Shown piece after piece: positions 6,067 to 18,754 of a DNA stretch of 64,000 nucleotides (the stretch's first letter is position 1; each line of letters starts with the position of its first letter). A program made the translations under genes and the position numbers. The notes beneath the pieces were generated by a model. It made no database searches. It saw nothing but the letters and a program-made list of their open reading frames with translations, and was not told the DNA's origin. The DNA is from Peterkaempfera bronchialis (GTDB lineage Bacteria > Actinomycetota > Actinomycetes > Streptomycetales > Streptomycetaceae): the NCBI RefSeq assembly GCF_003258605.2, contig NZ_CP031264.1, forward strand, positions 5,704,001-5,768,000, in the 5' to 3' direction.

Positions 6067-6573
6067 TCAGGCTTCCCCGGTCGGCAGCGCATACAGCCGC
6101 GGGAGGTTGACCACGATCGCCTCCTGGGTGCTGCGGGCGATGACGACCACGGCCTCGTCGGCGGGGTCCGGGTTCTCCTCGCGGTGCGGCACGAACGGGG
6201 GCACGAAGATGTAGTCACCGGGTGAGGTGCGCAGGCGTACTTCCTCGGGCTGCGGGCCCGAGTCGTCGAGGAAGACGAACTCGGGATGCCCGCTCACCAC
6301 GTAGATGGCGGTCTCGGACTCGCCATGGTGATGGTCGGAGGAGGAGGTGGAGGGGGCGACGTGGGTCTGGCCCATCCACAGCTTTTCGGAGCCCACTGTG
6401 GTGCCGCTGACTGCGGCGAATCTGCGCATGCCACCGGTCTGTGCCGTGTCGCCGTCGAGAGCGTCGGCCCGGATGTGGTGCAGGCGGGCGCGCAGGGGTG
6501 CTGCCGGATGCCCTGCGGCGTCATGGAGATGGGGATGGAAACCTTCGCCGGCGGTCGTCAACGGCTCGCTCAT
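6067..6573 (-). CDS. cupin domain protein
   Basis: 168 residues forming a single cupin barrel. Motif 1 is seen as SSSDHHHGESETAIYVVSGHPEF (metal ligands HHH...E) and motif 2 as SPGDYIFVPPFVPHREEN (PGD...PH). The layout resembles metal-binding RmlC-like dioxygenase or isomerase cupins; the reaction is not predictable. It is divergent from the Rrf2 regulator with 138 bp between their starts. A sequence block in that gap recurs before the organosulfur transporter, so the cupin may belong to the Rrf2 regulon. Confidence 0.8.
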   Translation of the reverse strand: MSEPLTTAGEGFHPHLHDAAGHPAAPLRARLHHIRADALDGDTAQTGGMRRFAAVSGTTVGSEKLWMGQTHVAPSTSSSDHHHGESETAIYVVSGHPEFVFLDDSGPQPEEVRLRTSPGDYIFVPPFVPHREENPDPADEAVVVIARSTQEAIVVNLPRLYALPTGEA

Positions 6574-6612
6574 GAGTGGGGACGCTAAAGCGGCCGGGAA
6601 AGGATGTCAAGA

Positions 6613-6623
6613 GGTGTCCATTG
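6613..6623 (+). promoter_or_regulatory. half-site shared with the 8101 palindrome
   Basis: GGTGTCCATTG, identical over 11 bases to 8111-8121, in the cupin/rrf2 divergent gap about 90 bp upstream of the Rrf2 start. Probably a binding half-site for the same regulator. Confidence 0.45.
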
Positions 6624-6711
6624 CCCTTCACCTGCGGCAATGTTCCCGCAATGGAGGCGGGGGAGCCGAGGCCGGCCTCGCGACCAGCACCTGGTCGGGC
6701 ATGATGTGCGC

Positions 6712-7146
6712 ATGCATATCTCCGCGAAGGCGGACTACGCGACGCGGGCCCTGCTGGAGCTCGCCTGCGAACCTGCCCGCCCGCTCACGTGCGAGGCCAT
6801 GGCCTCCTCGCAGCAGGTCCCTTTCCGGTTCCTCAAGTCCGTGGTGGGCGAGCTGCGCAGGGCCGGTCTGGTGCGCAGCCAGCGCGGCTGCGAGGGCGGG
6901 TACTGGCTCGGACGCCCCGCCGACGAGATCACCCTCCTGGATGTCGCGCGCGCCGTGGACGGCGAGTTGATCACCTTGCGGGGCGAGTCGCTGGCCGGGC
7001 TCGACTACCCCGGTCCCGCCGCCGGTCTGCCCGGGGTCTGGCGCCGGCTCGAAGCGGATGCCGCCGCACTCCTGGGCGGGACGACGCTCGCCGCGCTGCT
7101 GCCCGCCGCGGCGGGCGGACAGCTGAGCCACAAGGGAGCCGTGTGA
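6712..7146 (+). CDS. Rrf2-family transcriptional regulator
   Basis: 144 residues beginning MHISAKADYATRALLELA, the typical Rrf2 opening, followed by a winged helix (VPFRFLKSVVGELRRAGLVRSQRGCEGGYWLGRPADEITLLDVARAVDG). The three-cysteine Fe-S cluster of IscR/NsrR is absent (only one Cys in the wing), which puts it nearer the CymR type that controls sulfur metabolism by other signals. ATG 6712 was chosen because homology starts exactly there; an in-frame start 108 bp upstream would add an unrelated tail. Its GTGTGA end overlaps the DsbA-like gene, so the two are co-translated. It probably regulates the organosulfur genes that follow. Confidence 0.85.
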   Translation: MHISAKADYATRALLELACEPARPLTCEAMASSQQVPFRFLKSVVGELRRAGLVRSQRGCEGGYWLGRPADEITLLDVARAVDGELITLRGESLAGLDYPGPAAGLPGVWRRLEADAAALLGGTTLAALLPAAAGGQLSHKGAV

Positions 7147-8060
7147 CGCCCGCAGCGGACCAGCCGACGGTGGAGGTGGTGGAGTACACCGACCCGCTGT
7201 GCCCCTGGGCCTGGGGATCGGAGCCCGTCTTCCGCCGGCTCCGTGCGGCGCTCGCGGGCCGCGTCCGCTGGCGTCGCGCGTACTGCATCCTCTTCGACCA
7301 CGGCGACGATCCGGCGCCCGACCCGGTTGCGGAAACCGCCTGGTATGCGCGCTATGTCGAGGACGTCACCGTCCACACGCAGGCGCCCAGGGCGCCGCGA
7401 CTGAGCCGCGTGGCCGCGAGTTCGTGGCCGTCCTCGCTCATCGCCAAGGCCGCCGAACTGCAGGGCGCCGATGTGGCCGAACGGGTGCTGCGCCGACTGC
7501 GGGAGACGGTCTTCGTCCTCGGCGAACCGGCGGACACTCCCGCGCTGGCGCTGTCGGCGGTACGGGGCACGCCCGGTCTGGATCTTGAGCGGCTGGCCGC
7601 CGACGCGGCGTCGGCCGCCGTGCTGGAGCGGGTGCGCGCCGACCGGGCCGAAGCCCGTCGTCCGGTCGGTGAGGTGCTGTCCGTACGCGACGGGTCCCCG
7701 CATCCCGGCGCCGCCAAGGAGACCGCCGACGGCGAATACCGGTACGCGCTGCCGACGTTGCTGGTCCGCACCCCTGCCGGGTATCGCGTCGTGCCGGGCT
7801 GGCGGTCGTACGAGGAGTACGCCTCGGCGGTCGACGAGCTGAGCCCCGGGCTGCTGCCGGCCCCCGTGACGCTGGCCCCGGCGGAGGCGCTCGCACGGTA
7901 CCGAAGCCTGACCGACCCGGAGCGCAGACTGCTGACGCACGGCCCATGGCCCCCGGCCGACGCGGTCCGCGTCGAGACCGGCAACGGTCCTCTGTGGCTG
8001 CATATGGAGGAGGCCGCCGTGCACCCGGCCGGTGGCCGCAGCGCTTCCACGGCGCCCTGA
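7143..8060 (+). CDS. DsbA-fold (FrnE-like) protein lacking the second active-site cysteine
   Basis: 305 residues, GTG start overlapping the stop of the Rrf2 gene by four bases. The N-terminus VEVVEYTDPLCPWAWGSEP is the thioredoxin-fold strand-loop of DsbA/FrnE proteins. The active site reads C20-P-W-A, so the CxxC pair is incomplete and disulfide exchange is unlikely. The long helical insert (residues ~90-190) and cis-Pro-like strand ALPTLLV follow the DsbA family plan. There is no signal peptide, so it acts in the cytoplasm. Tight coupling to the regulator and proximity to the sulfur genes suggest thiol handling or a sensing partner; this is inferred. Confidence 0.72.
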   Translation: MTPAADQPTVEVVEYTDPLCPWAWGSEPVFRRLRAALAGRVRWRRAYCILFDHGDDPAPDPVAETAWYARYVEDVTVHTQAPRAPRLSRVAASSWPSSLIAKAAELQGADVAERVLRRLRETVFVLGEPADTPALALSAVRGTPGLDLERLAADAASAAVLERVRADRAEARRPVGEVLSVRDGSPHPGAAKETADGEYRYALPTLLVRTPAGYRVVPGWRSYEEYASAVDELSPGLLPAPVTLAPAEALARYRSLTDPERRLLTHGPWPPADAVRVETGNGPLWLHMEEAAVHPAGGRSASTAP

Positions 8061-8100
8061 CAGGCCTCTGATCAGCGGTCACGGCCGTCCCGCCGAATGA

Positions 8101-8116
8101 GACACCAATTGGTGTC
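8101..8116. promoter_or_regulatory. perfect 16-bp palindrome, candidate operator of the sulfur genes
   Basis: GACACCAATTGGTGTC is its own reverse complement. It lies 40 bp before the leader-peptide start, where a promoter is expected. Its right half plus CATTG recurs before the Rrf2 gene at 6613. The likely ligand is the Rrf2 protein. Confidence 0.6.
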
Positions 8117-8155
8117 CATTGACAGTCGCCGCACGCTGCCCCCAGGATGTGCACC

Positions 8156-8230
8156 ATGCTCACGACGCACCCCGGTGTGGTGTGCCGCTACGTGGATCTG
8201 CGGCGCACCTGCAGCGCTCTCTGTCGCTGA
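8156..8230 (+). CDS. cysteine-type leader peptide of the organosulfur transport operon
   Basis: A 24-codon ORF with three cysteine codons (C10, C19, C23). Residues 13-23 read VDLRRTCSALC, matching the VDL-R---SA-C pattern of short actinobacterial putative leader peptides found upstream of sulfur-assimilation and sulfonate-transport genes. Translation is thought to sense cysteine (Cys-tRNA) supply and control the downstream operon by attenuation. It starts 40 bp after a perfect palindrome and is followed by a 356-bp structured leader before the substrate-binding protein, all on the same strand. No other role is plausible for so short a Cys-rich ORF in this place. Confidence 0.8.
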   Translation: MLTTHPGVVCRYVDLRRTCSALCR

Positions 8231-8586
8231 CCGCCTGCCGCCCACGGCCCACTGGCGCCTGACCCCGCTCTCGTAGGCACCGGCCAACCGCCGCTTCGCC
8301 GCCCAGCGCCGGTCTTGTCGCGCCGCTTCCTTCGGGCCTCGTCGCCTCCCGCTCCTTCCGCGTCCCGGCCCTTTCCCCCCCGCGACCCCGCGACCCCGCC
8401 GGCGCCCGGTGCCATGCCATGGGCACCCCATGCCATGCCCTGGGCGCGGCATGCCCATGTGTGCACGAAGTGCGCACCGGCCTGCCCGTGCAGGGCTGAG
8501 CGGTCGTCCGGCACCGGGGCGAACCGCCCTTGCTCCCGATCCGCCGCCCCGACACGGGTCGGAGCCTTCGAAGAAAGACAACAGAG
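8231..8586 (+). promoter_or_regulatory. structured 5' leader, possible cysteine attenuator
   Basis: 356 bp with no gene between the leader peptide and the transporter. It holds a cluster of overlapping hairpins: GGTGCC/GGCACC arms at 8408-8413 and 8422-8427, a CCATGCCATG direct repeat at 8412 and 8428, and a GTGCAC-GAA-GTGCGC stem at 8461-8475. Alternative pairings could form an attenuator; no intrinsic terminator with a U-tract is visible. Confidence 0.4.
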
Positions 8587-10149
8587 ATGTCCGGACGACT
8601 CACGTCCCACCGCTCCAGACTGGACCTTCGCCCCGCCCGGCTGCGCGCCGCGGCCCTGGGGACCGCCCTCGCCACCGTGCTCGTCCCCGCCCTCAGCGCC
8701 TGCGGCGGCGACCCCGCTTCGGCGACCGGCAGCGCCACACTGAAGTGGGCCTCCTCCTACTTCCCCACCCACTGGGACCCGGTGGTCGGCGGCAGCGGCG
8801 CCCAGTTCCGCGAACTCGCCCTGGTGTACGCCTCGTTGACCCGCACCGACGAGAACGGCAAGGCCGTGCCCGACCTGGCCAAGAGCTGGGAGTACAACGC
8901 CAAGGGCGACCAGATCACGTTTCACCTGCACCCCGACCTGAAGTTCAGCGACGGTGAGCCGGTCAACGCCGCCGCCGTGAAGGCCGCCATCGAACGGGCC
9001 CAGCAGCAGAAGAACTCCGCGCTCTTCGGCGACCTCAAGTCGATCAGTTCCGTGGATGCCAACGGGCTGGACGCGGTGATCCACCTCACCCAGGTCGACT
9101 ACCAGATCCCCCAACTCCTCGGTGAGCGCGTCCTGCAGATCGCCAGCCCCAAGGCGGCCGCGTCCCCCGACACACTGGACCAGGCCCCGGTCGGTGCCGG
9201 GCCGTTCATCGTCACGCAGCTGGTACCAGGCACCAAGGCGGTCCTGAGGAAGAACCCGGACTACTGGGACGCGAAGAACATCCACATCGACAACGTCGAG
9301 CTGACCTCGGCCCCCGACGCCCTGACGGTCGTGTCCGGACTGCAGACCGGCGTCTACAACTTCGCCGACATCGCGCCCAGTCAGGCCGAAGCCGCCAGGA
9401 AGGCCGGCCTCGACGTCTTCGTCCAGCCCGGCTTCAACGCCTCCAACATCAGCCTCAACATCAACAAGGCGCCGTTCAACAACGACAAGGTCGTCGACGC
9501 GGTCCGCTACGCGATCGACCGTCAGGAGTTCGTCGACAAGCTCACCTTCGGCTACGGCTCGGTGACCAACCAGCCGTTCCCCAAGGGGTACGTGGCCTAC
9601 GACCCGCAGTCCGCGAACGACTACGCCTACGACCCGGCGAAGTCGAAGCAGCTGCTCGCCGAGGCCGGTTACAAACCAGGCGACATCAAGCTCAACCTGG
9701 TCATCCCGGCGGAGGACCCCCAAGCGGAGATCGTCCAGGCGCAGTTGGCGAAGGTCGGCATCACCGCCGACATCAAGATCGACAAGAACTGGGCCACCCC
9801 GTTCTTCGCCAAGGACCTGACGTTCTCGCTGTACGGCACCACGGGGCGTGACTCCGCCGCCCAGACCCTGACCGCGCACTTCGGCCCCAACGGCCCGCTC
9901 AACCTCAGCTCACCCTATGAGCCGGCCGGCTTCGAGGAGGCCATCGCCAAGGTCCGGCAGACCCCGCTGGACTCGTCCGACTACGCGACCGTCCTTCAGG
10001 CCGCGACCCGGGTCGGCCTGCAGAGCAAGGCGTTGATCTTCACATACTCGTCGCCCAACCTCATCGCCAAGAGCAAGTCCATCTCCGCCCTGCCCAAGAA
10101 CCCGGCCCACATCGACTGGACCGGCGTGACCATCTCCGGCAGCAACTGA
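8587..10149 (+). CDS. ABC transporter substrate-binding lipoprotein, peptide/nickel (SBP_bac_5) type
   Basis: 520 residues. A signal peptide ends in a lipobox LSAC-GG near residue 38, so the protein is anchored outside the membrane. The mature protein has the family 5 plan: FRELALVYASLTRTDENGKAVPDLAKSWE near the start, a YWD-like KNPDYWDAKNIHIDNVEL, a hinge VRYAIDRQEFVDKLTFGYG and YDPAKSKQLLAEAGY. This family binds peptides, glutathione, opines or metal chelates. Given the cysteine leader upstream and the monooxygenases downstream, the ligand is probably a sulfur-containing peptide-like molecule. First gene of an operon running to 18754. Confidence 0.85.
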   Translation: MSGRLTSHRSRLDLRPARLRAAALGTALATVLVPALSACGGDPASATGSATLKWASSYFPTHWDPVVGGSGAQFRELALVYASLTRTDENGKAVPDLAKSWEYNAKGDQITFHLHPDLKFSDGEPVNAAAVKAAIERAQQQKNSALFGDLKSISSVDANGLDAVIHLTQVDYQIPQLLGERVLQIASPKAAASPDTLDQAPVGAGPFIVTQLVPGTKAVLRKNPDYWDAKNIHIDNVELTSAPDALTVVSGLQTGVYNFADIAPSQAEAARKAGLDVFVQPGFNASNISLNINKAPFNNDKVVDAVRYAIDRQEFVDKLTFGYGSVTNQPFPKGYVAYDPQSANDYAYDPAKSKQLLAEAGYKPGDIKLNLVIPAEDPQAEIVQAQLAKVGITADIKIDKNWATPFFAKDLTFSLYGTTGRDSAAQTLTAHFGPNGPLNLSSPYEPAGFEEAIAKVRQTPLDSSDYATVLQAATRVGLQSKALIFTYSSPNLIAKSKSISALPKNPAHIDWTGVTISGSN

Positions 10150-10181
10150 CACTCCGTCCACTACAAGAGAGGGGGCAAGCC

Positions 10182-11210
10182 ATGACGACGACGGAGGCAC
10201 CGGCCACACCCGACGTCCGTCACCAGGCCGCCACGACCCGGACGCGGAGCGCACTGGGCCGCGTCCTGGTCACCCTCGCCCGGTCGGTCGTGATCTTCGT
10301 GCCTGTCTTCCTGGTCGCGACGTTCGTGACATTCGCGCTGCGGTCACTGAGCGGGCTCAGCCCGGCGCGGATCCAGCTGGGTGAGGACGCAGCTCCTGAA
10401 GCAATCGCCCGAGTCGAGGCGCAGTGGGGCCTCGACCGGCCCTTCCTGGTCCAGTACGGGGACTGGTTGGGCGGCATCCTGCACGGACAGCTCGGCACCA
10501 GCTGGACCCACGGCGCCGACATCTCCACCCTCATCGGCCTCGGCCTGGGCGTGAGCCTGTCGGTGGCGACCTTCGCACTGCTCATCGGTGTGATCGCGGG
10601 CTTCGCCCTCGGCGCGGTCGCGGCGCTGCGCCGCACCACGTGGGTCGACCGCGCGATCACGGGCTTTGTCACGGTGATCTCGGTGATGCCGGCCTTCGTC
10701 GTCGGCATCGTGCTGGTCGCGGTCTTCGCGGTGGGACTGCACATGTTCCCGTCCGCCGGCTACGTCCCTGCGGCGCAGGGGTTCGGCCCGTGGCTCGCCC
10801 ACATCACCCTCCCGGCCATCGCCCTGAGTTTCGACGTCGTCGCCGATGTCGCCCGCCAACTGCGCACCAGCCTCATCGCGGCCTACCGCGAGAACTACGT
10901 GACGGGGGCGGTGGTCCGGGGGCTCAGTCCGCGTCGGATCTTCTTCGGCCATGTGCTGCGCAACGGCCTCGGCCCGGCGCTCGCCACCCTCGGTCTGAAA
11001 TTCCCCTCCCTGGTGGGCGCCTCCGTCGTCACAGAGTGGATCTTCGGGCTCCAGGGCTTCGGCAGATTTGCCAACGACTCCGCCCAGGCCGGCGACGTAC
11101 CGGCCGTGCAGGGCGTCCTCGTGGTGTCGATCGTCCTGGTCGTCGCCTTCAACCTGATCGTCAACCTGGTGCTGGCGCGCGTGACGCCGGCATCCCAGCG
11201 GGGGGTGTGA
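10182..11210 (+). CDS. ABC transporter permease, DppB/OppB type
   Basis: 342 residues with an N-terminal membrane anchor (VIFVPVFLVATFVTFAL), an extracytoplasmic loop containing LGLDRPF-type WGLDRPFLVQYGDWLGGILHGQLGTSW, and five further hydrophobic segments. The EAA loop AYRENYVTGAVVRGLSPRRIFFGHVLRNGLGPAL contacts the ATPases. It begins 32 bp after the binding-protein stop with GAGAGGGGG as ribosome site. It pairs with the DppC-type permease that follows to form the channel. Confidence 0.88.
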   Translation: MTTTEAPATPDVRHQAATTRTRSALGRVLVTLARSVVIFVPVFLVATFVTFALRSLSGLSPARIQLGEDAAPEAIARVEAQWGLDRPFLVQYGDWLGGILHGQLGTSWTHGADISTLIGLGLGVSLSVATFALLIGVIAGFALGAVAALRRTTWVDRAITGFVTVISVMPAFVVGIVLVAVFAVGLHMFPSAGYVPAAQGFGPWLAHITLPAIALSFDVVADVARQLRTSLIAAYRENYVTGAVVRGLSPRRIFFGHVLRNGLGPALATLGLKFPSLVGASVVTEWIFGLQGFGRFANDSAQAGDVPAVQGVLVVSIVLVVAFNLIVNLVLARVTPASQRGV

Positions 11211-11212
11211 CC

Positions 11213-12166
11213 ATGGTGCGCCGCGTGCTGTCCCTCACGTCCGGCCGGATCGCCCTGGCCATCCTGACCGTGATCGCCCTGCTCGCCCTGCTCGGCCCGC
11301 TCATCGCGCCCCACGACCCGCTGGCCACCACCGACAACACCCTTGCCGACGCCTCGGGCAGCCATTGGCTGGGCACGGACTACCTCGGCCGCGATGTGCT
11401 GAGCCGGCTTCTCGACGGCTCCCGGGTCAGCGTGCTCGGCACGCTCGAGGTCGCGCTCACAGCGCTGGGGGTCGGGGCGGTCCCCGGCATCCTGTCGGTC
11501 TACTTCGGACGGGTCTTCGAGTGGATCACCCTGCGGTTGACCGACACCCTGGTCGCCCTGCCCTTCCTGCTGTTCGCCGTCGCCGTGGTCGCGCTGCTCG
11601 GCAACGGCCTCACCCAGGCGATGCTGGTCACGGGGGTGCTGGTGTCCCCGCTGTTCTACCGGGTGGCCCGCGCCGCCACGCTGGCCGTGGCCCGCTCGCC
11701 GTATGTGGAGGCGGCGCTGCTCTCCGGTGCCTCCATCGGCTGGGTCGTACGCCGCCACGTCTGGGTCAAGGTGCTCCCGCCGATCGCGGTGGCACTCGCC
11801 CAGACCATCGGCGTCGGCTTCGTCATCGTCTCGACCCTGACCTTCCTGGGGATCGGCATCCAGCCCCCCGCGCCCACCTGGGGTGGCCTGCTCGCCTCGG
11901 ATCTGGGCTACCTCAGCCAGCAGCCGTGGGCACCGCTCGTCCCCGCCCTGCTGATCATGGTCACCGTCTGGGCCTGCAACCTTCTCGCCGACGCGATCCG
12001 CGACGTCTCCGGCGAAGCGGGCCGCGCGCTGGTCGACAACCGCAGGGCGCGCGCCAACCGTCTCGCTGACGCTGACGCTGACGCTGACGCTGACGCTGAC
12101 GCTGACGCTGACGCCGACACCGATGCCCACGCCGACGCCGCTCACGTTCACGCCGGAGGTGCGTGA
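11213..12166 (+). CDS. ABC transporter permease, DppC/OppC type, with Asp/Ala/His-rich tail
   Basis: 317 residues. DppC features: an N-terminal segment with LLGPLIAPHDP, the LGTDYLGRDVLSRLLDGSRVS signature, five to six membrane segments and an EAA loop (EAALLSGASIGWVVRRHVWVKVLPPI). Two bases separate it from the first permease. The last ~35 residues are unusual: after NRRARANRLA the chain becomes (AD)n, then TDAHADAAHVHAGGA, encoded by eight perfect GCTGAC hexamers. This tail is cytoplasmic, acidic with three histidines, and not part of the family. Repeat slippage would change its length by two residues without breaking the frame. Confidence 0.86.
   Translation: MVRRVLSLTSGRIALAILTVIALLALLGPLIAPHDPLATTDNTLADASGSHWLGTDYLGRDVLSRLLDGSRVSVLGTLEVALTALGVGAVPGILSVYFGRVFEWITLRLTDTLVALPFLLFAVAVVALLGNGLTQAMLVTGVLVSPLFYRVARAATLAVARSPYVEAALLSGASIGWVVRRHVWVKVLPPIAVALAQTIGVGFVIVSTLTFLGIGIQPPAPTWGGLLASDLGYLSQQPWAPLVPALLIMVTVWACNLLADAIRDVSGEAGRALVDNRRARANRLADADADADADADADADADTDAHADAAHVHAGGA
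12065..12118 (+). repeat. GCTGAC hexamer repeat inside the permease gene
   Basis: Eight perfect tandem GCTGAC copies (12065-12112) plus one GCCGAC copy, all in frame, encoding alternating Ala-Asp. Confidence 0.9.
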
Positions 12167-13059
12167 TGGCCGTTCTCTCCGAGAAAGCCCTCATCGAGGT
12201 CGAGAAGGCGGATGCGGCCGAGCCCGTCCGCCCGACCGACCCGTCGACGCCGGTCCTGTCCGTACGCGATGTGCGCATCAGCGACCAGGCCGGCGGCCGT
12301 GAGATCGTCCACGGTGTCAGCTTCACGCTCACGCCCGGCAAGGCCGTCGGCATCGTCGGCGAGTCCGGCAGCGGAAAGACCCTCACCTGCCGTGCGGCGC
12401 TGGGCATCCTGCCCGCCCACTTCGGGATCACCGACGGCTCGATCGAGATCGACGGCACCGACACCGCGGCCCTCTCGTCCGCGCAGTGGACCGCCCTGCG
12501 GGGCGCCACCCTCAGCGCGGTCTTCCAGGACCCGGCGTCCTATCTCAACCCGTCGATCCGGGTGGGCGCGCAGATCGCCGAGGTCGTCCGGGTCAAGAAG
12601 GGACTGAAGCGGCGCGAGGCCCGCCGGCGAGCGATCGAACTGCTGCGCGCCGTGCACCTGCGGGACCCGGAGCTGGTCTACAGCCAGTACACCTACGAAC
12701 TCTCCGGCGGCATGCTCCAACGAGTCCTCATCGCGGCGGCGATCGCCGCCGACCCGCGGATCCTCATCGCCGACGAGGCCACGACCGCGCTGGACGTCAC
12801 CGTCCAGGCCGAGATCCTCGACCTGCTGGCCGACCTGCGCGAGCGAACCGGCCTGGCCCTCGTCCTGGTCTCCCACGACCTGGCCGTCGTCGCCCAGCTG
12901 TGCGACGAGGTCCTCGTCATGCGGCAGGGCGACGTGGTCGAACAGGGCCCGACCCACGAGGTGCTCCACCACCCGAAGCACGAGTACACCCGGCTGCTGA
13001 TCGCCGAGCACGAACAGTACGGCCTGGACAAGTTCCTCGTCTCCGAGGAGGACGCGTGA
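12166..13059 (+). CDS. ABC transporter ATPase, DppD/OppD type
   Basis: 297 residues. Walker A GESGSGKT near residue 65, Q-loop VFQDPASYLNPSIRVGAQI, signature LSGGMLQR, Walker B ILIADEATTALDVT and H-loop VSHDLAVVAQLCDEV are all intact. The ending HHPKHEYTRLLIAEHEQYG is typical of peptide/nickel importers. ATG 12166 overlaps the permease TGA and follows GGAGG; a GTG one codon earlier is possible. It works with the next gene as an ATPase pair driving the importer. Confidence 0.88.
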   Translation: MAVLSEKALIEVEKADAAEPVRPTDPSTPVLSVRDVRISDQAGGREIVHGVSFTLTPGKAVGIVGESGSGKTLTCRAALGILPAHFGITDGSIEIDGTDTAALSSAQWTALRGATLSAVFQDPASYLNPSIRVGAQIAEVVRVKKGLKRREARRRAIELLRAVHLRDPELVYSQYTYELSGGMLQRVLIAAAIAADPRILIADEATTALDVTVQAEILDLLADLRERTGLALVLVSHDLAVVAQLCDEVLVMRQGDVVEQGPTHEVLHHPKHEYTRLLIAEHEQYGLDKFLVSEEDA

Positions 13060-13922
13060 GCACCAACCCGTCGCGGAAGCCGACCGGCTCCGAGGAGTCC
13101 GCGGTCCCCGTCCTGGAGGTCACGAACCTGGAGGTGCACTACGGGCTGCGCCGGCGCCGTCGCCGTGCCCTGCGCGGTGTCTCCCTGAGCGTCGCGCCGG
13201 GCGAGACCGTCGGCATCATCGGCGAGACCGGCTCGGGCAAGTCGACGCTCGCACGGGCCGCGCTCGGCCTGGTACGCGCCTCGGCGGGCTCGCTCGTGAT
13301 CGACGGCGTGGAGGTGGGCGCGTACGGCCACCGCCAGTGGCGCGACCTGCGCCGCCGGGGCGTGGTCCAGTACGTCTTCCAGGACCCCCTTCGCAGCCTC
13401 GATCCGGACCTGACGATCGAGGCGTCCCTGACCGAACCGCTGCTCATCCAGGGCGTGCCCCGGCAGGAGGCGGCGTCCCGGACGCGCGCGTTCCTCTCCC
13501 GGGTCCGGCTCTCCGCCGATCTGCTCGACCGACTGCCCGGTGAGCTGTCCGGCGGTCAGCGCCAACGCATGGCGGTGGCCCGCGCGTTGGTGACCGAGCC
13601 GCGTCTGGTCATCCTCGACGAGCCGGTCAGCGCCCTGGACTCCGCCAACCGCGTGCAGATCCTCCAGATCCTCAAGGAACTCCGCGCCGACGGGGTGGCC
13701 CTCGTCTTCATCTCCCACGACCTCGGCTCCGTCGCCGGGGTCGCCGACCGCATCGCCGTGCTGTACCAGGGCGAGCTGGTCGAGGTCGGCACCGCCGGCG
13801 ACGTCATCAACCAGCCCCAGCACGCCTACACGCGGCTGCTCGTCCGGTCCGCGCCGACCCTGCACAGCGCGGCGGCGGACCGCGCCGAACGTGAAGCCCT
13901 GCGCGCCCTCCTGCACGCCTGA
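13056..13922 (+). CDS. ABC transporter ATPase, DppF/OppF type
   Basis: 288 residues, GTG start in a GTGA overlap with the previous gene. Walker A GETGSGKST, Q-loop YVFQDPLRSLDPDLTI, signature LSGGQRQR, Walker B LVILDEPVSALD and H-loop FISHDLGSVAGVADRI are complete. The DppF-type ending QPQHAYTRLLVRSAP is present. It completes a five-component importer (binding protein, two permeases, two ATPases) in canonical order. Confidence 0.88.
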   Translation: MSTNPSRKPTGSEESAVPVLEVTNLEVHYGLRRRRRRALRGVSLSVAPGETVGIIGETGSGKSTLARAALGLVRASAGSLVIDGVEVGAYGHRQWRDLRRRGVVQYVFQDPLRSLDPDLTIEASLTEPLLIQGVPRQEAASRTRAFLSRVRLSADLLDRLPGELSGGQRQRMAVARALVTEPRLVILDEPVSALDSANRVQILQILKELRADGVALVFISHDLGSVAGVADRIAVLYQGELVEVGTAGDVINQPQHAYTRLLVRSAPTLHSAAADRAEREALRALLHA

Positions 13923-13945
13923 GTCCACTCCAGACAGGAACAGCC

Positions 13946-15286
13946 ATGTCCCGCACGATCCATCTCGCACTCCACCCGTACGGCGTGGGCGGTCCCGGCC
14001 AGCACGGCCTGTGGAAGGACCCGCGCGTCGCGAAGAACGCCAGCATCGACATCGACTACTACATCCGGCTGGCCCAGGCGGCCGAACACGCCCTGTTCGA
14101 CGCGCTGTTCATCGTCGACAGCCAGTTCATCAACGCGACCTACCCGGCGCACTACCTCAACCGCCTGGAGCCGCTGACCCTGCTGTCGGCTGTCGCCACC
14201 CACACCCGGCACATCGGCCTGGTGGGCACGGCGAGTTCGACGTACAACTCGCCGTTCAACCTCGCCCGCCGGTTCGCCTCGCTCGACCACATCAGCGGCG
14301 GGCGGGCCGGCTGGAACGTGGTGACCAGCTTCGACACCGGCACGTCGAGGAACTTCGGGCTCGACGAGCACCTCGACTACACCACCCGCTACGGCCGCGC
14401 CCTGGAGTTCGTCCAGGTCGCCCGTGGCCTGTGGGACTCCTACGAGGACGACGCCTTCCCCGCCGACGTGGCACGCAACGTCTTCCTCGACCCGGCCAAG
14501 CTGCACGAACTCCACCACGTGGGCGAGCACTTCAAGGTCGCCGGTCCGCTGAACCTCTCCCGCTCCCCGCAGGGTCAGCCGGTGATCTTCCAGGCCGGAG
14601 TGTCCGAGGAGGGCCGTGACCTCGCCGCGCAGGTCGCCGAGGGCATCTACGCGCCGGGCGGCACCCTTCAGCAGGCGCAGGAGTACTACACGGACATCAA
14701 GAAGCGGACCGCCGCCTACGGTCGCGACCCCGACCACATCAAGATCTTCATCCACGGGGGCCCGGTCGTCGCCGCCACGGACGAGGCGGCCCGGCGCCGC
14801 GAGCGGGAGATCTTCGAGGAGGACAACGACTTCGACCGCAACCTCGCGCTGCTGGGCCGTTCCTTCGGGGCCTACGACTTCAGCGTCCACGACCTGGACG
14901 GGCCGTTCCCCGACGTCGCGCACCTCGCGGAGAAGAGCGGCCGCACGGGCGCCGCGAAGCTCATCGAGCAAGCCAGGGCAGAGAACCTGACGCTTCGCCA
15001 AGTGGCCGCGAATGCCAACCAGTTCCGGCAGTCACCCTTCGTCGGGGCGCCGCAGACCGTCGCCGACACCATCGAGCAGTGGTTCGACGCCGGCACCTTC
15101 GACGGCATCAACCTGGCCTTCCGCACCGAGGACGAACTGGACTACTTCATCGACGGCGTCGTCCCGATCCTGCAGAAGCGCGGACTGTTCCGCACCGAGT
15201 ACGCGAGCGACACCCTGCGCGGCAACCTCGGTCTGCCGATCCCCGCCAACCGCCACGCCCCCGAGCGCCAGCTCGTGAACGACTGA
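13946..15286 (+). CDS. NtaA/SnaA/DszA-family FMN-dependent monooxygenase
   Basis: 446 residues, the usual length of this bacterial-luciferase-like (LLM) family. It shows the TIM-barrel landmarks ALFDALFIVDSQ, LTLLSAVATHTRHIGLVGTASSTYNSPFNLARRFASLDHISGGRAGWNVVTS and the C-terminal GINLAF...DYFIDGVVPILQKRGLFRTEYASDTLRGNLGLP. Members use FMNH2 supplied by a separate reductase and O2 to cleave C-S or C-N bonds (for example DszA on sulfones, NtaA on nitrilotriacetate). The SsuE-like reductase at 18197 is the likely partner. It starts 23 bp after the ATPase gene, so import and oxidation are coupled. Confidence 0.87.
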   Translation: MSRTIHLALHPYGVGGPGQHGLWKDPRVAKNASIDIDYYIRLAQAAEHALFDALFIVDSQFINATYPAHYLNRLEPLTLLSAVATHTRHIGLVGTASSTYNSPFNLARRFASLDHISGGRAGWNVVTSFDTGTSRNFGLDEHLDYTTRYGRALEFVQVARGLWDSYEDDAFPADVARNVFLDPAKLHELHHVGEHFKVAGPLNLSRSPQGQPVIFQAGVSEEGRDLAAQVAEGIYAPGGTLQQAQEYYTDIKKRTAAYGRDPDHIKIFIHGGPVVAATDEAARRREREIFEEDNDFDRNLALLGRSFGAYDFSVHDLDGPFPDVAHLAEKSGRTGAAKLIEQARAENLTLRQVAANANQFRQSPFVGAPQTVADTIEQWFDAGTFDGINLAFRTEDELDYFIDGVVPILQKRGLFRTEYASDTLRGNLGLPIPANRHAPERQLVND

Positions 15287-15296
15287 GGGCCGCGCC

Positions 15297-17075
15297 ATGA
15301 CCGAACTGTCGGCGACGGGGGGCCGCGACGTCCACACCGTCCCCTTCCCCACCGCAGCGCCCCCGGCGGCCATCGACATCCTCATCGTCGGCGCGGGCCC
15401 GGTGGGCCTGGCGGCGGCGGTCGAGCTGACCTCGCGCGGGGTCCGGGCCGCCGTGATCGACCGCGCCCGCGGCGCGACCCTGGTGCGGGCCGGTGCGATG
15501 GGGCACACCCCGCGTGTCGTGGAGCATCTGCGGCGTTGGCGGCTGCTCCAGCGCATCCGCGACGCCTGGACCTACCCTCCGGAGTGGCACCGGGGCACCA
15601 GACTGGTCACCTCCCTGGCCGGACACGAACTGGTGCCGGCCTCCGGCCCGTCGTTCACGGACCGGGGCAGCGCCGCCAGGCACTCGGCGGACGAGGCGCT
15701 GCGCCGCCCGCAGACCGTGTTCCAGCGGGTGTTCCTCGACCACTTGGCGGAGCAGGGCGTGAGCGTGTCCGGCGGCTGGGAACTGACGGCGCTGCGCGAG
15801 GACGCGGACGGAGTCGACGCTGAGGTCGTCAACGTCGACTCGGGCCGATCGCAGACCGTCCGAGCGGCCTACGTCCTGGGCACCGACGGGGGCAGCAGCA
15901 CCACGCGCCGGCTGGCCGGTATCGCCCGTGAGGGGGAGCACGCCACCGAGAAGCTGCTGCGCCTCATCGTCCGCACCGGCGACATCTCCGACCGGGTGGG
16001 GCCTGCGCCCAGCGCCACCAACATCGTCGTCAACGCCCGCGCGTCCGGCTTCCTGGCCGCCGTCAGCGCCCGTGACTGGCGGGTGTACGCGGGGCCGTAC
16101 CCGCTCGACCACGAGCCCGGTGAGGACGAGCTCCTGGAGATCGGCCGGGCTGCCTTCGGCTGCGACGTGGACCTGGAGCTGCTGTCGGCGACGACCTTCT
16201 ACCACGCCACCCGGATCGCGGAGACCTTCCGTCGCGGCCGGGTCCTGCTCGCCGGTGACGCCGCGCATGTGCGCACGCCCGGCGGCAATCTGGGCGAGGG
16301 CATCGGCGACGTGGTCAACCTCGGCTGGAAGCTCGCCGCGGTGCTCGACGGCCATGCCCCGCAGACCTTGCTGGACTCCTACGACCAGGAGCGCCGCCGG
16401 CACAACTGGCGTGTCGCCGACCACTCCCTGGAGCGGTCACGGCGCACGCGGGCCACCCTGGCCGAGATCCGCGACGGCGGCATTCCCGACGACGCGGACC
16501 TCAGCGACGCGGCCTCGCGGCGACGGGCCGAGATCGGCGCGCGCCTGCGTCAGGACCATTCCGGCGCGGCCGGCGTCGCCTTCGACGAGCGCTACGACGC
16601 CTCGGCGGTCGTCTGCTACGAACCCGGCCAGCTCGACACGGAGCCGCCCTGGCGAGCCGACGTCTACGAGGACGACCCGCGACCGGGTCATCGCGCACCG
16701 GACGGCCCCGTCGACCCGAGCGGCGGCACGCTCTACGACCGCCTGGGCACCTCTTTCGGCCTGCTCGTCCTGACCGAGGACCGAACGGTCGAGCACGCCT
16801 TCGCCGCCGAGGCCGCCGCCCGGTCCCTGCCGTTCACCGTCGTCCACCTCACCGACCCGGCGGCGCGCGCCGTCTACGGCACCGCCAATGTCCTGATCCG
16901 CCCCGACCAGCACGTGGTCTGGCGCGGCACCCACCTGCCCCGGGCCGGCGCCGCCACGGTCCTCGACCGGGTGCTGGGGCGGGTCGAGGCGACGGCGGTC
17001 GAGGCGACGACGGTCGAGGCGACGACGGCACACACCGGCGTACGCACACCGGCTCCGGCCGAGGCCACCGCCTGA
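15297..17075 (+). CDS. FAD-dependent aromatic-hydroxylase-type monooxygenase
   Basis: 592 residues. The N-terminal Rossmann motif IVGAGPVGLAAAVEL, the DG motif (LGTDGGSSTTRRLAGI) and the GD motif LLAGDAAHVRTPGGNLGEGIGDVVNLGWKLAAVL define the PHBH-like class that hydroxylates with NAD(P)H, FAD and O2. A C-terminal thioredoxin-like domain (LTDPAARAVYGTANVLIRPDQHVVWRG) is seen, as in MhpA/PgaE-length enzymes. The last 30 residues carry a VEATA-VEATT-VEATT repeat from 15-bp tandem copies. It sits 10 bp after the LLM gene. A PHBH-like enzyme in a sulfur operon is unusual; it may oxidise a thioether or an aromatic part of the substrate. Confidence 0.82.
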   Translation: MTELSATGGRDVHTVPFPTAAPPAAIDILIVGAGPVGLAAAVELTSRGVRAAVIDRARGATLVRAGAMGHTPRVVEHLRRWRLLQRIRDAWTYPPEWHRGTRLVTSLAGHELVPASGPSFTDRGSAARHSADEALRRPQTVFQRVFLDHLAEQGVSVSGGWELTALREDADGVDAEVVNVDSGRSQTVRAAYVLGTDGGSSTTRRLAGIAREGEHATEKLLRLIVRTGDISDRVGPAPSATNIVVNARASGFLAAVSARDWRVYAGPYPLDHEPGEDELLEIGRAAFGCDVDLELLSATTFYHATRIAETFRRGRVLLAGDAAHVRTPGGNLGEGIGDVVNLGWKLAAVLDGHAPQTLLDSYDQERRRHNWRVADHSLERSRRTRATLAEIRDGGIPDDADLSDAASRRRAEIGARLRQDHSGAAGVAFDERYDASAVVCYEPGQLDTEPPWRADVYEDDPRPGHRAPDGPVDPSGGTLYDRLGTSFGLLVLTEDRTVEHAFAAEAAARSLPFTVVHLTDPAARAVYGTANVLIRPDQHVVWRGTHLPRAGAATVLDRVLGRVEATAVEATTVEATTAHTGVRTPAPAEATA

Positions 17076-17095
17076 CACCGAAAGGCGATCACCCC

Positions 17096-17368
17096 ATGGC
17101 GAGCGAGCGACCACGCTGCCGGCTCGGTTTCCACACCCACGTCCAGGGCCGCGACGACGACCGACGAGCTCGGCTTCGACGTCGGCTGGGTCGCCCAGCA
17201 CCACGTCTCGCGACTGACCTGATCACCCGGTTCAACCCCGCCGTCCCCGACCACGACGCCGCCATCCGTGCCCTCGAACTCATCGCGGCCGAGGTGGCAC
17301 CCGCCTTGGGCGGACAGCCCGCCCACCGGGCCGAACCCGCATCCGCATCCGGATCCGCAGGAGCGTGA
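17096..17368 (+). pseudogene. remnant of a second LLM-class flavin monooxygenase
   Basis: Short pieces of an LLM flavin monooxygenase survive in different frames: the start CRLGFHTHVQGRDD (about 17117-17160), then TDELGFDVGWVAQHHVS shifted in frame (about 17160-17220), then the C-terminal end LITRFNPAVPDHDAAIRALELIAAEVAPALG (17217-17316). Relatives are about 330-400 residues, so most of the barrel has been deleted. The 90-residue open frame through the region is a by-product of the deletions. It lies between two intact operon genes, meaning the ancestral operon had two LLM enzymes. Confidence 0.72.
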
Positions 17369-17369
17369 C

Positions 17370-18143
17370 ATGACCGAGTACAGCGACTACCACGGCCCCG
17401 AAGGCCTCCGCACCCGCGGCACGATTCTCGTGGTTCCCGGCCGAGGCGAGACCCGGGCGACCTACGCCCGCTTCGGCAGGCGGCTCGCCGCCGACGCCTA
17501 CCGGGTCCGCGTGATCGACGCCCCGGCCCTCGACGCCGACGACCCGACCGCCTCCCTGGCCGGCTTCGCCGACCGACTCGCAGACGCCGTCAAGGGCACG
17601 GCAGCCGAGGACGGTGTCATACGGCCGCTCGTCCTCGTCGGAGCCGACTCGGGCGCCGCCGCAATCGCCGCGCTGCTCGGCTCGGCGGAGACACCCGGCG
17701 GGCAGCCGGACGCCGTGGTGCTCGCGGGCCTTCCCGGCCAGGCCGCCGGGACCACCGAGGCCGTAGGGACCTGGGACGAGGAACTCGACGTCCGCACGTC
17801 CTGCCCCGCCCACCGGGGCACCCTCACCCAGGACTCCCGGGTGCGGCGCGGCTCGCTCAACGACGCGGTACCGGACGCGGTACTCATTGCGGCCCTGGAC
17901 AGCGAAGCCGCCGTCCCCGCCCTGCTCCTCATCGGCGACGCCGACCCCCTCGCCGACCACGAGGCACTCGCCCGCACAGCGAAGTCCCTGCCCCGCGCCC
18001 GCCTCTCGGTCGTCCACGGCGCCCGCCACGACGTCCTCAACGACCTCCAGCACCGCTCGGTGGCCGCCGAGACCGTCACCTTCCTGGAAACCCTGCGCAA
18101 CGAGCTGCGGCCGCTGATCACGGTGCGGTCGAGCGCTTGGTGA
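17370..18143 (+). CDS. alpha/beta hydrolase
   Basis: 257 residues. The fold is visible as TRGTILVVPGRGETRATYARFGRRLAADAYRVRVIDAPA (strands 3-4 and oxyanion loop), the nucleophile elbow LVLVGADSGAAA, an acid-bearing LLLIGDADPLADHEAL and a late histidine in VVHGARHDVLND. The elbow reads G-A-D-S-G, so the nucleophile position is Asp, as in dehalogenase/epoxide-hydrolase-type members. The ATG follows AGGAG. Its place between the monooxygenases and the flavin reductase suggests it hydrolyses an oxidised intermediate of the same pathway; the substrate is unknown. Confidence 0.78.
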   Translation: MTEYSDYHGPEGLRTRGTILVVPGRGETRATYARFGRRLAADAYRVRVIDAPALDADDPTASLAGFADRLADAVKGTAAEDGVIRPLVLVGADSGAAAIAALLGSAETPGGQPDAVVLAGLPGQAAGTTEAVGTWDEELDVRTSCPAHRGTLTQDSRVRRGSLNDAVPDAVLIAALDSEAAVPALLLIGDADPLADHEALARTAKSLPRARLSVVHGARHDVLNDLQHRSVAAETVTFLETLRNELRPLITVRSSAW

Positions 18144-18196
18144 GCACCCACCCGCCCGCGCGGAGCGTCTGAACCCCGATCCCGAAAGGTCCCGTC

Positions 18197-18754
18197 ATGG
18201 CCTCGATCCTGTCCGTCTCCGGAAGCCCCTCCCACACCTCCCGCACCACACGACTGCTGCGTCACCTCGACGACCGGCTCCGCCTCCAGGGCCACGACGT
18301 GACTCCGCTGGAGGTGCGGACCCTGCCCCCGCAGGCGCTGCTCGGCGCCGACCTCCGGCACCCGGCGATCACCGCTGCCGCAGCCCTGTTCGAGCAGGCG
18401 GACGGGGTGGTGATCGGCACCCCCGTGTACAAGGCCGCCTACTCAGGCCTGTTGAAGTCGCTGCTCGATCTGCTCCCGCAGTACGCGCTGACCGGCAAGA
18501 CGGTGCTGCCCCTGGCCACCGGTGGCAGCACGGCGCACGTCCTGGCCATCGACTACGCGTTGCGTCCGGTGCTGAGCTCCATGGGCGCCTCGCACATCGT
18601 GCCCGGCTGGTTCACGCTCGACAAGGACCTCGCGGTCGGCGACGACGGCACATTGACCGTCGCGCCCGCTGCCGCCACGGCGCTGGAGCAGGTCACGGAC
18701 CACTTCTCCAGCGCGCTGGGAGGCCGCACCACCGTGCTCGCGCCGACAGGGTGA
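18197..18754 (+). CDS. ssuE: NAD(P)H-dependent FMN reductase, SsuE type
   Basis: 185 residues of the flavodoxin-like NADPH-dependent FMN reductase family. The phosphate-binding loop SVSGSPSHTSRTTRLL is at the N-terminus, and ADGVVIGTPVYKAAYSGLLKSLLDLLPQYAL with LPLATGGS forms the flavin site and dimer contact. SsuE enzymes make FMNH2 for LLM monooxygenases such as SsuD, and this one probably serves the NtaA/DszA-like enzyme at 13946. It ends the operon. A close paralogue lies at 51813 in the polyketide region. Confidence 0.85.
   Translation: MASILSVSGSPSHTSRTTRLLRHLDDRLRLQGHDVTPLEVRTLPPQALLGADLRHPAITAAAALFEQADGVVIGTPVYKAAYSGLLKSLLDLLPQYALTGKTVLPLATGGSTAHVLAIDYALRPVLSSMGASHIVPGWFTLDKDLAVGDDGTLTVAPAAATALEQVTDHFSSALGGRTTVLAPTG

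Follow-up and report, generated by a model that had tools for sequence, protein, structure and literature searches.

Organization of the locus

The window, which is the whole stretch of 64,000 nucleotides that was analyzed, contains a short open reading frame (ORF) upstream of an operon encoding a peptide-type importer and flavin oxygenases. The features that concern us are given below, with the basis of each assignment in brackets.

6640-7146, + strand: regulator of the Rrf2 family, proposed to bind the palindrome (PF02082 and TIGR00738 over cut-off; co-occurrence)
7143-8060, + strand: DsbA/thioredoxin_5-like protein, cassette member (domain match, synteny)
8101-8116, no strand: candidate operator GACACC-AATT-GGTGTC, a perfect 16-bp palindrome (arms in 53/53 type-1 loci, centre variable)
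8119-8124, + strand: -35 box TTGACA (53/53 loci)
8143-8148, + strand: -10 box CAGGAT, 7 nt before the leader ATG in the window (50/53 loci)
8156-8230, + strand: cysteine leader peptide MLTTHPGVVCRYVDLRRTCSALCR and stop, 24 codons (translation, conservation, family match)
8179-8209, + strand: possible intra-ORF hairpin, 8179-8188 paired with 8200-8209 (weak: one compensatory pair in 2 sequences)
8183-8224, + strand: family core CRYVDLRRTCSALC, in the family R-x-[HA]-[VI]-D-L-x-R-x5-C (168 distinct leaders, gap-free alignment)
8222-8224, + strand: candidate sensor codon TGT (Cys23), 8 residues after L15 of VDL (codon conservation)
8231-8586, + strand: untranslated spacer, rich in C and poor in G, a candidate region for Rho loading (base composition)
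8587-10149, + strand: SBP_bac_5 solute-binding lipoprotein (domain match)
10182-11210, + strand: ABC permease, OppB/NikB type (domain match)
11207-12163, + strand: ABC permease, OppC type (domain match)
12163-13059, + strand: ABC ATPase, OppD/NikD type (family profile)
13056-13922, + strand: ABC ATPase, OppF type (synteny and ORF)
13946-15286, + strand: LLM flavin monooxygenase, NtaA/DmoA family (TIGR03860, 496 bits, cut-off 280; nearest solved YtnJ)
15297-17075, + strand: FAD-dependent monooxygenase (domain match, synteny)
17370-18143, + strand: alpha/beta hydrolase (domain match, synteny)
18197-18754, + strand: SsuE-type NADPH-dependent FMN reductase (TIGR03567, 220 bits, cut-off 164)

The five-gene peptide/nickel-type ABC importer claimed in the first-pass annotation is present, with its SBP_bac_5 protein, two permeases, and two ATPases. 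The C-terminus of the second permease (window about 12060-12160) carries an Asp-Ala repeat (DADADADAD...) that derives from a hexanucleotide repeat. Among solved-structure relatives of the LLM enzyme, YtnJ scores best (391 bits), followed by nitrilotriacetate monooxygenase, DszA, and others. YtnJ corresponds to CmoJ. In the salvage of S-alkylcysteines, CmoJ breaks the C-S bond (PMC10863075). The FAD monooxygenase at 15297-17075 is found in only some orthologous operons and is thus likely accessory. Given a YtnJ-like LLM enzyme together with a peptide-type importer and an FMN reductase, the likely function of the operon is uptake of an organosulfur compound followed by its desulfurisation through C-S cleavage; to name the exact substrate, such as S-substituted cysteines, would be a guess.

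The 24-codon ORF reported at 8156-8230 was confirmed by translation and ends 356 nt before the SBP_bac_5 gene. Its three Cys codons lie at positions 10, 19, and 23 and are not adjacent; all are present as claimed, but C19 is replaced by Ser in 21 of 52 type-1 loci, which leaves C10 and C23 as the invariant pair. Family-wide, the sole universal Cys is the equivalent of C23. A search with the SBP yielded 79 loci, and 53 loci, with the window counted in, carry a near-identical peptide ORF upstream of an orthologous SBP gene. A scan of the 64 kb gives a single occurrence of the leader motif, and 60 order-1 resamplings give none; together with the recurrence of the same ORF in 53 loci, this argues that the ORF did not arise by chance. 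An in-frame ATG is found 9 nt 5' of position 8156 in 40/53 loci and an ATG at 8156 itself in all; a start at the upstream ATG (8147) was rejected because it is missing in 13/53 loci. The -35 and -10 boxes are separated by 18 nt in 51/53 loci, and the ATG follows the -10 box at 6-7 nt in 53/53. Since this spacing places the ATG immediately past the promoter in every locus, we predict a leaderless leader mRNA.

The palindrome preceding the promoter is unique within 2 mismatches in the 7.09-Mb genome, and the count of 53/53 for its arms allows one or two single-base arm variants of the type GACACC-N4-GGTGTC. A role as a genome-wide sulfur operator was rejected on account of this uniqueness and because the degenerate form barely exceeds its control in frequency (25 versus 22). 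Nearly all type-1 and type-2 loci with upstream Rrf2-DsbA genes contain the palindrome, and it is absent before the leader in those loci of another family of the class (f18) that are devoid of the Rrf2-DsbA genes. GACACC-N4-GGTGTC is therefore a likely candidate operator, and the adjacent Rrf2 protein would be its likeliest binder in view of this joint presence and absence. One locus counts against the link with Rrf2 (L055), as the palindrome is present and its 10-kb flank contains no Rrf2 gene. The cupin/Rrf2/DsbA-like block as a whole (6067-8060 in the window, and its relatives) forms a conserved cassette 5' of two different importer operons.

Kinship and conservation of the leader

A search of the leader against NCBIfam returned two matches only, NF042936 (Ms4527A family Cys-rich leader peptide; 17.3 bits, cut-off 45) and NF042934 (cis_reg_atten, putative leader peptide; 15.9 bits, cut-off 27). 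Thus, the family search proposed in the first-pass annotation did lead to cysteine-leader families, but both scores fall below the curated cut-offs, and we consider the leader a diverged relative of the actinobacterial cysteine-leader families rather than a formal member. What it has in common with both is [VI]DLxR-x5-C, a short ORF preceding sulfur genes, and UGU at a fixed Cys. It differs in having C-R-Y-V-D-L in place of R-R-H-V-D-L and an unusually conserved N-terminal THPGVV. The core [HAY][VI]DLxR with a Cys 8 residues past the L is present as YVDLRRTCSALC, and 168 leaders have the same spacing. NF042934 matches 76/98 genomes of the class and, at the same threshold, 0/14 control genomes.

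Ten other leaders of this kind are found in the same genome, mostly before sulfur genes. More specifically, the genes that follow them encode a sulfite/nitrite reductase (NIR_SIR), a 2OG oxygenase, SfnG (623 bits, cut-off 383), a rhodanese, SBP_bac_5, an SfnB-like acyl-CoA dehydrogenase, an unassigned protein, the cysteine synthase CysM (357 bits, cut-off 344), TauD, and a further SBP_bac_5. One paralogous importer cassette also has this leader and stands 5' of SsuD/SfnG-like and SfnB-like genes, and the operon of the window itself holds sulfur genes behind its leader, namely those for the SsuE-type reductase and the NtaA/DmoA-type LLM enzyme. Family kinship and the mostly sulfur-related genes downstream of the ten other leaders, together with the paralogous cassette, support the sulfur label that had been proposed for the transporter and its oxygenases. 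It had also been stated that the proteins themselves do not give this label; the leader does supply it, but so in part do the proteins, as the reductase scores above the cut-off for SsuE and YtnJ is the closest relative of the LLM enzyme among solved structures. In several loci a further family leader (MTVLVTRRHVDYVRVTSTGC...) lies just 3' of the SsuE gene (L020:20982-21056, L022, L024, L027, L042, L091, and L096), where it presumably heads the next operon.

Among 150 genomes of the bacterial family, the SBP is present in 13, every one of which has the leader as well, and 20 more hold the leader; in those of the latter that were examined, it stands 5' of a second SBP_bac_5 importer, about 45% identical, with the same operator and promoter. 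In f18, the leader matches over its C-terminal 17 residues (MRSRFLPVACRYVDYRRTSSALCR) and stands 5' of the second SBP type with no operator, and diverged CRW[VL]D..R leaders occur in loci of Frankia, Nocardioides, Nostocoides, and Kineosporia. A frameshifted leader was found at L069:9620-9724, in which a small deletion takes the C-terminal Cys codons and the operator and promoter are kept. No other defective copy was seen in Streptomyces-type loci whose sequence covers this region (L082 shows a stretch of N instead, and some contigs stop short of it).

Differences at first and second codon positions amount to 0.027 in the leader versus 0.100 in the SBP, and those at fourfold sites to 0.106 versus 0.373, so that both peptide and nucleotides are constrained in the type-1 subfamily. 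Moreover, the type-1 leader has 14 fourfold codon positions, and at 11 of these the third base reaches an identity of 96% or more, compared with 3.5% of comparable SBP columns (Fisher p about 3e-11, with loci that are not independent). With most of its fourfold bases frozen in this way, this leader probably has a role at the RNA level beyond that of the peptide.

One genome (L068) contains two leader copies, 7042-7116 (-) and 9607-9681 (+), about 2.5 kb apart and beside an inverted cupin-Rrf2-DsbA block. The copy at L068:7042-7116 keeps the peptide core despite many synonymous differences, which suggests selection on the peptide itself. Such conservation of amino acids would also be expected if the peptide worked in trans or were a stable small protein, an explanation that we consider highly improbable given the strict place of the ORF before the operon, its distance of 6-7 nt from the promoter, and its resemblance to leader families. 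Instead, the ORF at 8156-8230 is very probably a cis-acting cysteine-responsive leader that controls 8587-18754. We infer the regulation by cysteine from family and conservation, and by analogy with mycobacterial leaders that respond to cysteine.

A nearly invariant UGU codon

The codon for Cys23 is TGT in 52/52 type-1 leaders and in 20/20 of the type-2 set. For a wider comparison, we drew on 13 genomes of the order and on the class, which gave 168 distinct cores that fit [RKCS]-x-x-[VIL]-D-[LYF]-x-[RK]-x5-C. TGT encodes the last Cys in 167 of them and TGC in one, and every other wobble position of the motif varies. A looser reading of the motif gave 137 TGT, 0 TGC, and two stops at the sensor position, and matches to NF042936 gave 27 TGT, 1 TGC, and 2 GGG at that codon, both sets overlapping with that of the 168 cores; leaders found independently by a codon-blind ORF scan agree with the rule. 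Elsewhere, TGC prevails over TGT, with ratios of 92:12 for upstream Cys and 33:16 for downstream Cys of the same leaders and 542:102 for flanking genes. As the one tRNA-Cys found in this genome has the anticodon GCA (in a pattern search that a second tRNA-Cys of another form would escape), UGU would be read by wobble.

From this codon conservation, it is fairly probable that UGU is the decisive sensor codon. It is less probable, at about one chance in four in our judgment, that codon 23 is kept for an RNA sequence or structure, or as an RNase or release-factor signal, and not for its decoding speed. In two leaders of other genomes (L193 and L211), a stop rather than TGT stands exactly at the sensor position (SSAY-stop and CSAI-stop), and this, like the many frozen bases of type-1 leaders, would agree with such a need of the RNA. 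However, neighbouring wobble bases vary freely over the 168 leaders, leaving no constant stem partner for the codon. A sensor codon may in addition be assisted by the peptide that precedes it. The distance from VDL to UGU is fixed while synonymous change is free, which suggests that the nascent chain aids the pause, and we hold this and its opposite to be equally plausible.

Spacer and leader RNA

The spacer between the leader and the SBP gene is richer in C than in G in 53/53 loci (mean C 0.476, G 0.286). Since the coding part of the SBP gene is also C-rich, less strongly (C 0.38, G 0.30), this composition is weak evidence for Rho. A search for intrinsic terminators found none in 7900-8800, and the ribosome-binding region of the SBP gene is predicted to be more accessible than the leader average in 42/52 loci. 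These three observations lead us to favour Rho over masking of the ribosome-binding site, and Rho-dependent attenuation is our preferred output step, which we hold to be slightly more probable than not.

The main rival is translational attenuation with a masked Shine-Dalgarno sequence, in which the leader RNA would pair with the SBP ribosome-binding site and mask it whenever no ribosome stands at the Cys codons. Reports on the mycobacterial relatives describe this mode, and the constraint on the type-1 leader at the nucleotide level would fit it. However, the spacer varies from 236 to 570 nt across loci and is hardly conserved, and the predicted relative openness of the ribosome-binding region would also speak against masking, which makes this a possible but rather doubtful alternative. 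A pairing of leader CUCUCUGU with the SBP ribosome-binding site was dropped, as by eye it fits the window and not its relatives. An Rfam search of the leader region gave no match.

A classical attenuator with competing terminator and antiterminator hairpins is improbable. Although a stable hairpin can form within the ORF, its compensatory changes amount to a single pair and type-2 leaders do not preserve it, and the spacer contains neither an intrinsic terminator that we could find nor much conserved sequence. We demoted the hairpin to a weak candidate for these reasons and because 44/2000 synonymous recodings keep all ten pairs. It also leaves the frozen fourfold bases unexplained.

Discussion

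On the Rho-dependent reading that we prefer, the leader could operate as follows. Judging from the promoter, transcription would begin at or next to the ATG, and a 70S ribosome would start on the leader without a Shine-Dalgarno sequence. RYVDLRRTxSAL would then be translated and sit in the upper exit tunnel as the UGU of Cys23 reaches the A site. With ample Cys-tRNA, UGU would be read and the ribosome would exit at the UGA two codons on, leaving the C-rich spacer bare, so that Rho could stop transcription ahead of the transporter genes. With scarce Cys-tRNA, the ribosome would wait at UGU, with its G-U wobble to tRNA-Cys(GCA), and the conserved nascent chain may strengthen the pause. The parked ribosome would block Rho or refold the RNA, and the operon would be expressed. 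It is possible that a second, transcriptional input comes from the operator at 8101-8116, which is probably bound by the adjacent Rrf2 protein.

In a more general form, we propose that actinobacterial cysteine leaders do more than count Cys codons and are conditional arrest peptides, an idea to which we give even weight for and against. The R-x-H-V-D-L-x-R-x5 chain would poise the ribosome, and the single obligatory, wobble-read UGU would act as a sharp sensor of Cys-tRNA charging that coordinates about ten sulfur operons per genome.

Through the leader, an uncharacterised importer of the peptide type and the flavin oxygenases encoded with it can be assigned to a putative cysteine/sulfur regulon, which points to a substrate class to assay, that is, organosulfur compounds and possibly S-substituted cysteines. 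Moreover, the occurrence of UGU in 167/168 leaders of genomes that favour UGC makes possible a clean and cheap synonymous-codon test of the cysteine set-point. The leader core can also serve as a short signature with which annotation pipelines may find missed leaders.

In arrest peptides such as TnaC, conserved residues of the nascent chain lie at a set distance from the codon at which the ribosome stalls, and TnaC also uses Rho. The family leaders resemble them in the invariant spacing from motif to codon, with synonymous change free in the R, V, D, L, and R codons. However, arrest of the TnaC type responds to a bound ligand, whereas the signal for the stalling suggested here would be a lack of charged tRNA. 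The Rhodobacterales cysS attenuator uORFC-8-2 (PMC8632094) is alike in the Cys codons of its upstream ORF and in its predicted stalling readout, but it belongs to an unrelated lineage and has two tandem Cys codons, a dominance of UGC, and an intrinsic terminator (PMC8632094).

The closest comparison is with the polycysteine leaders of mycobacteria. PMC4633059 was the first to note them, apart from an earlier report on cys operons (PMC1262725), which suggested Rho for those operons. These relatives respond to cysteine according to the passages on Canestrari 2020 in PMC9031893, PMC13236596, and PMC9094748, and those in PMC9031893 and PMC13236596 describe translation attenuation in which the Shine-Dalgarno sequence is masked. 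The window leader has in common with these leaderless attenuators a short, conserved ORF with Cys codons, here predicted to be leaderless, before cysteine or sulfur genes. In contrast to their run of Cys codons, it has no contiguous Cys codons and instead a single UGU that is invariant family-wide, and the locus adds a long C-rich spacer and an operator. A literature search returned no described UGU rule and no Streptomyces HVDL leader, with a mention in the key mycobacterial study (PMC8764745) being possible. What is new here is the one fixed Cys of the family, with TGT as its codon in 167/168 leaders despite the TGC preference of neighbouring genes.
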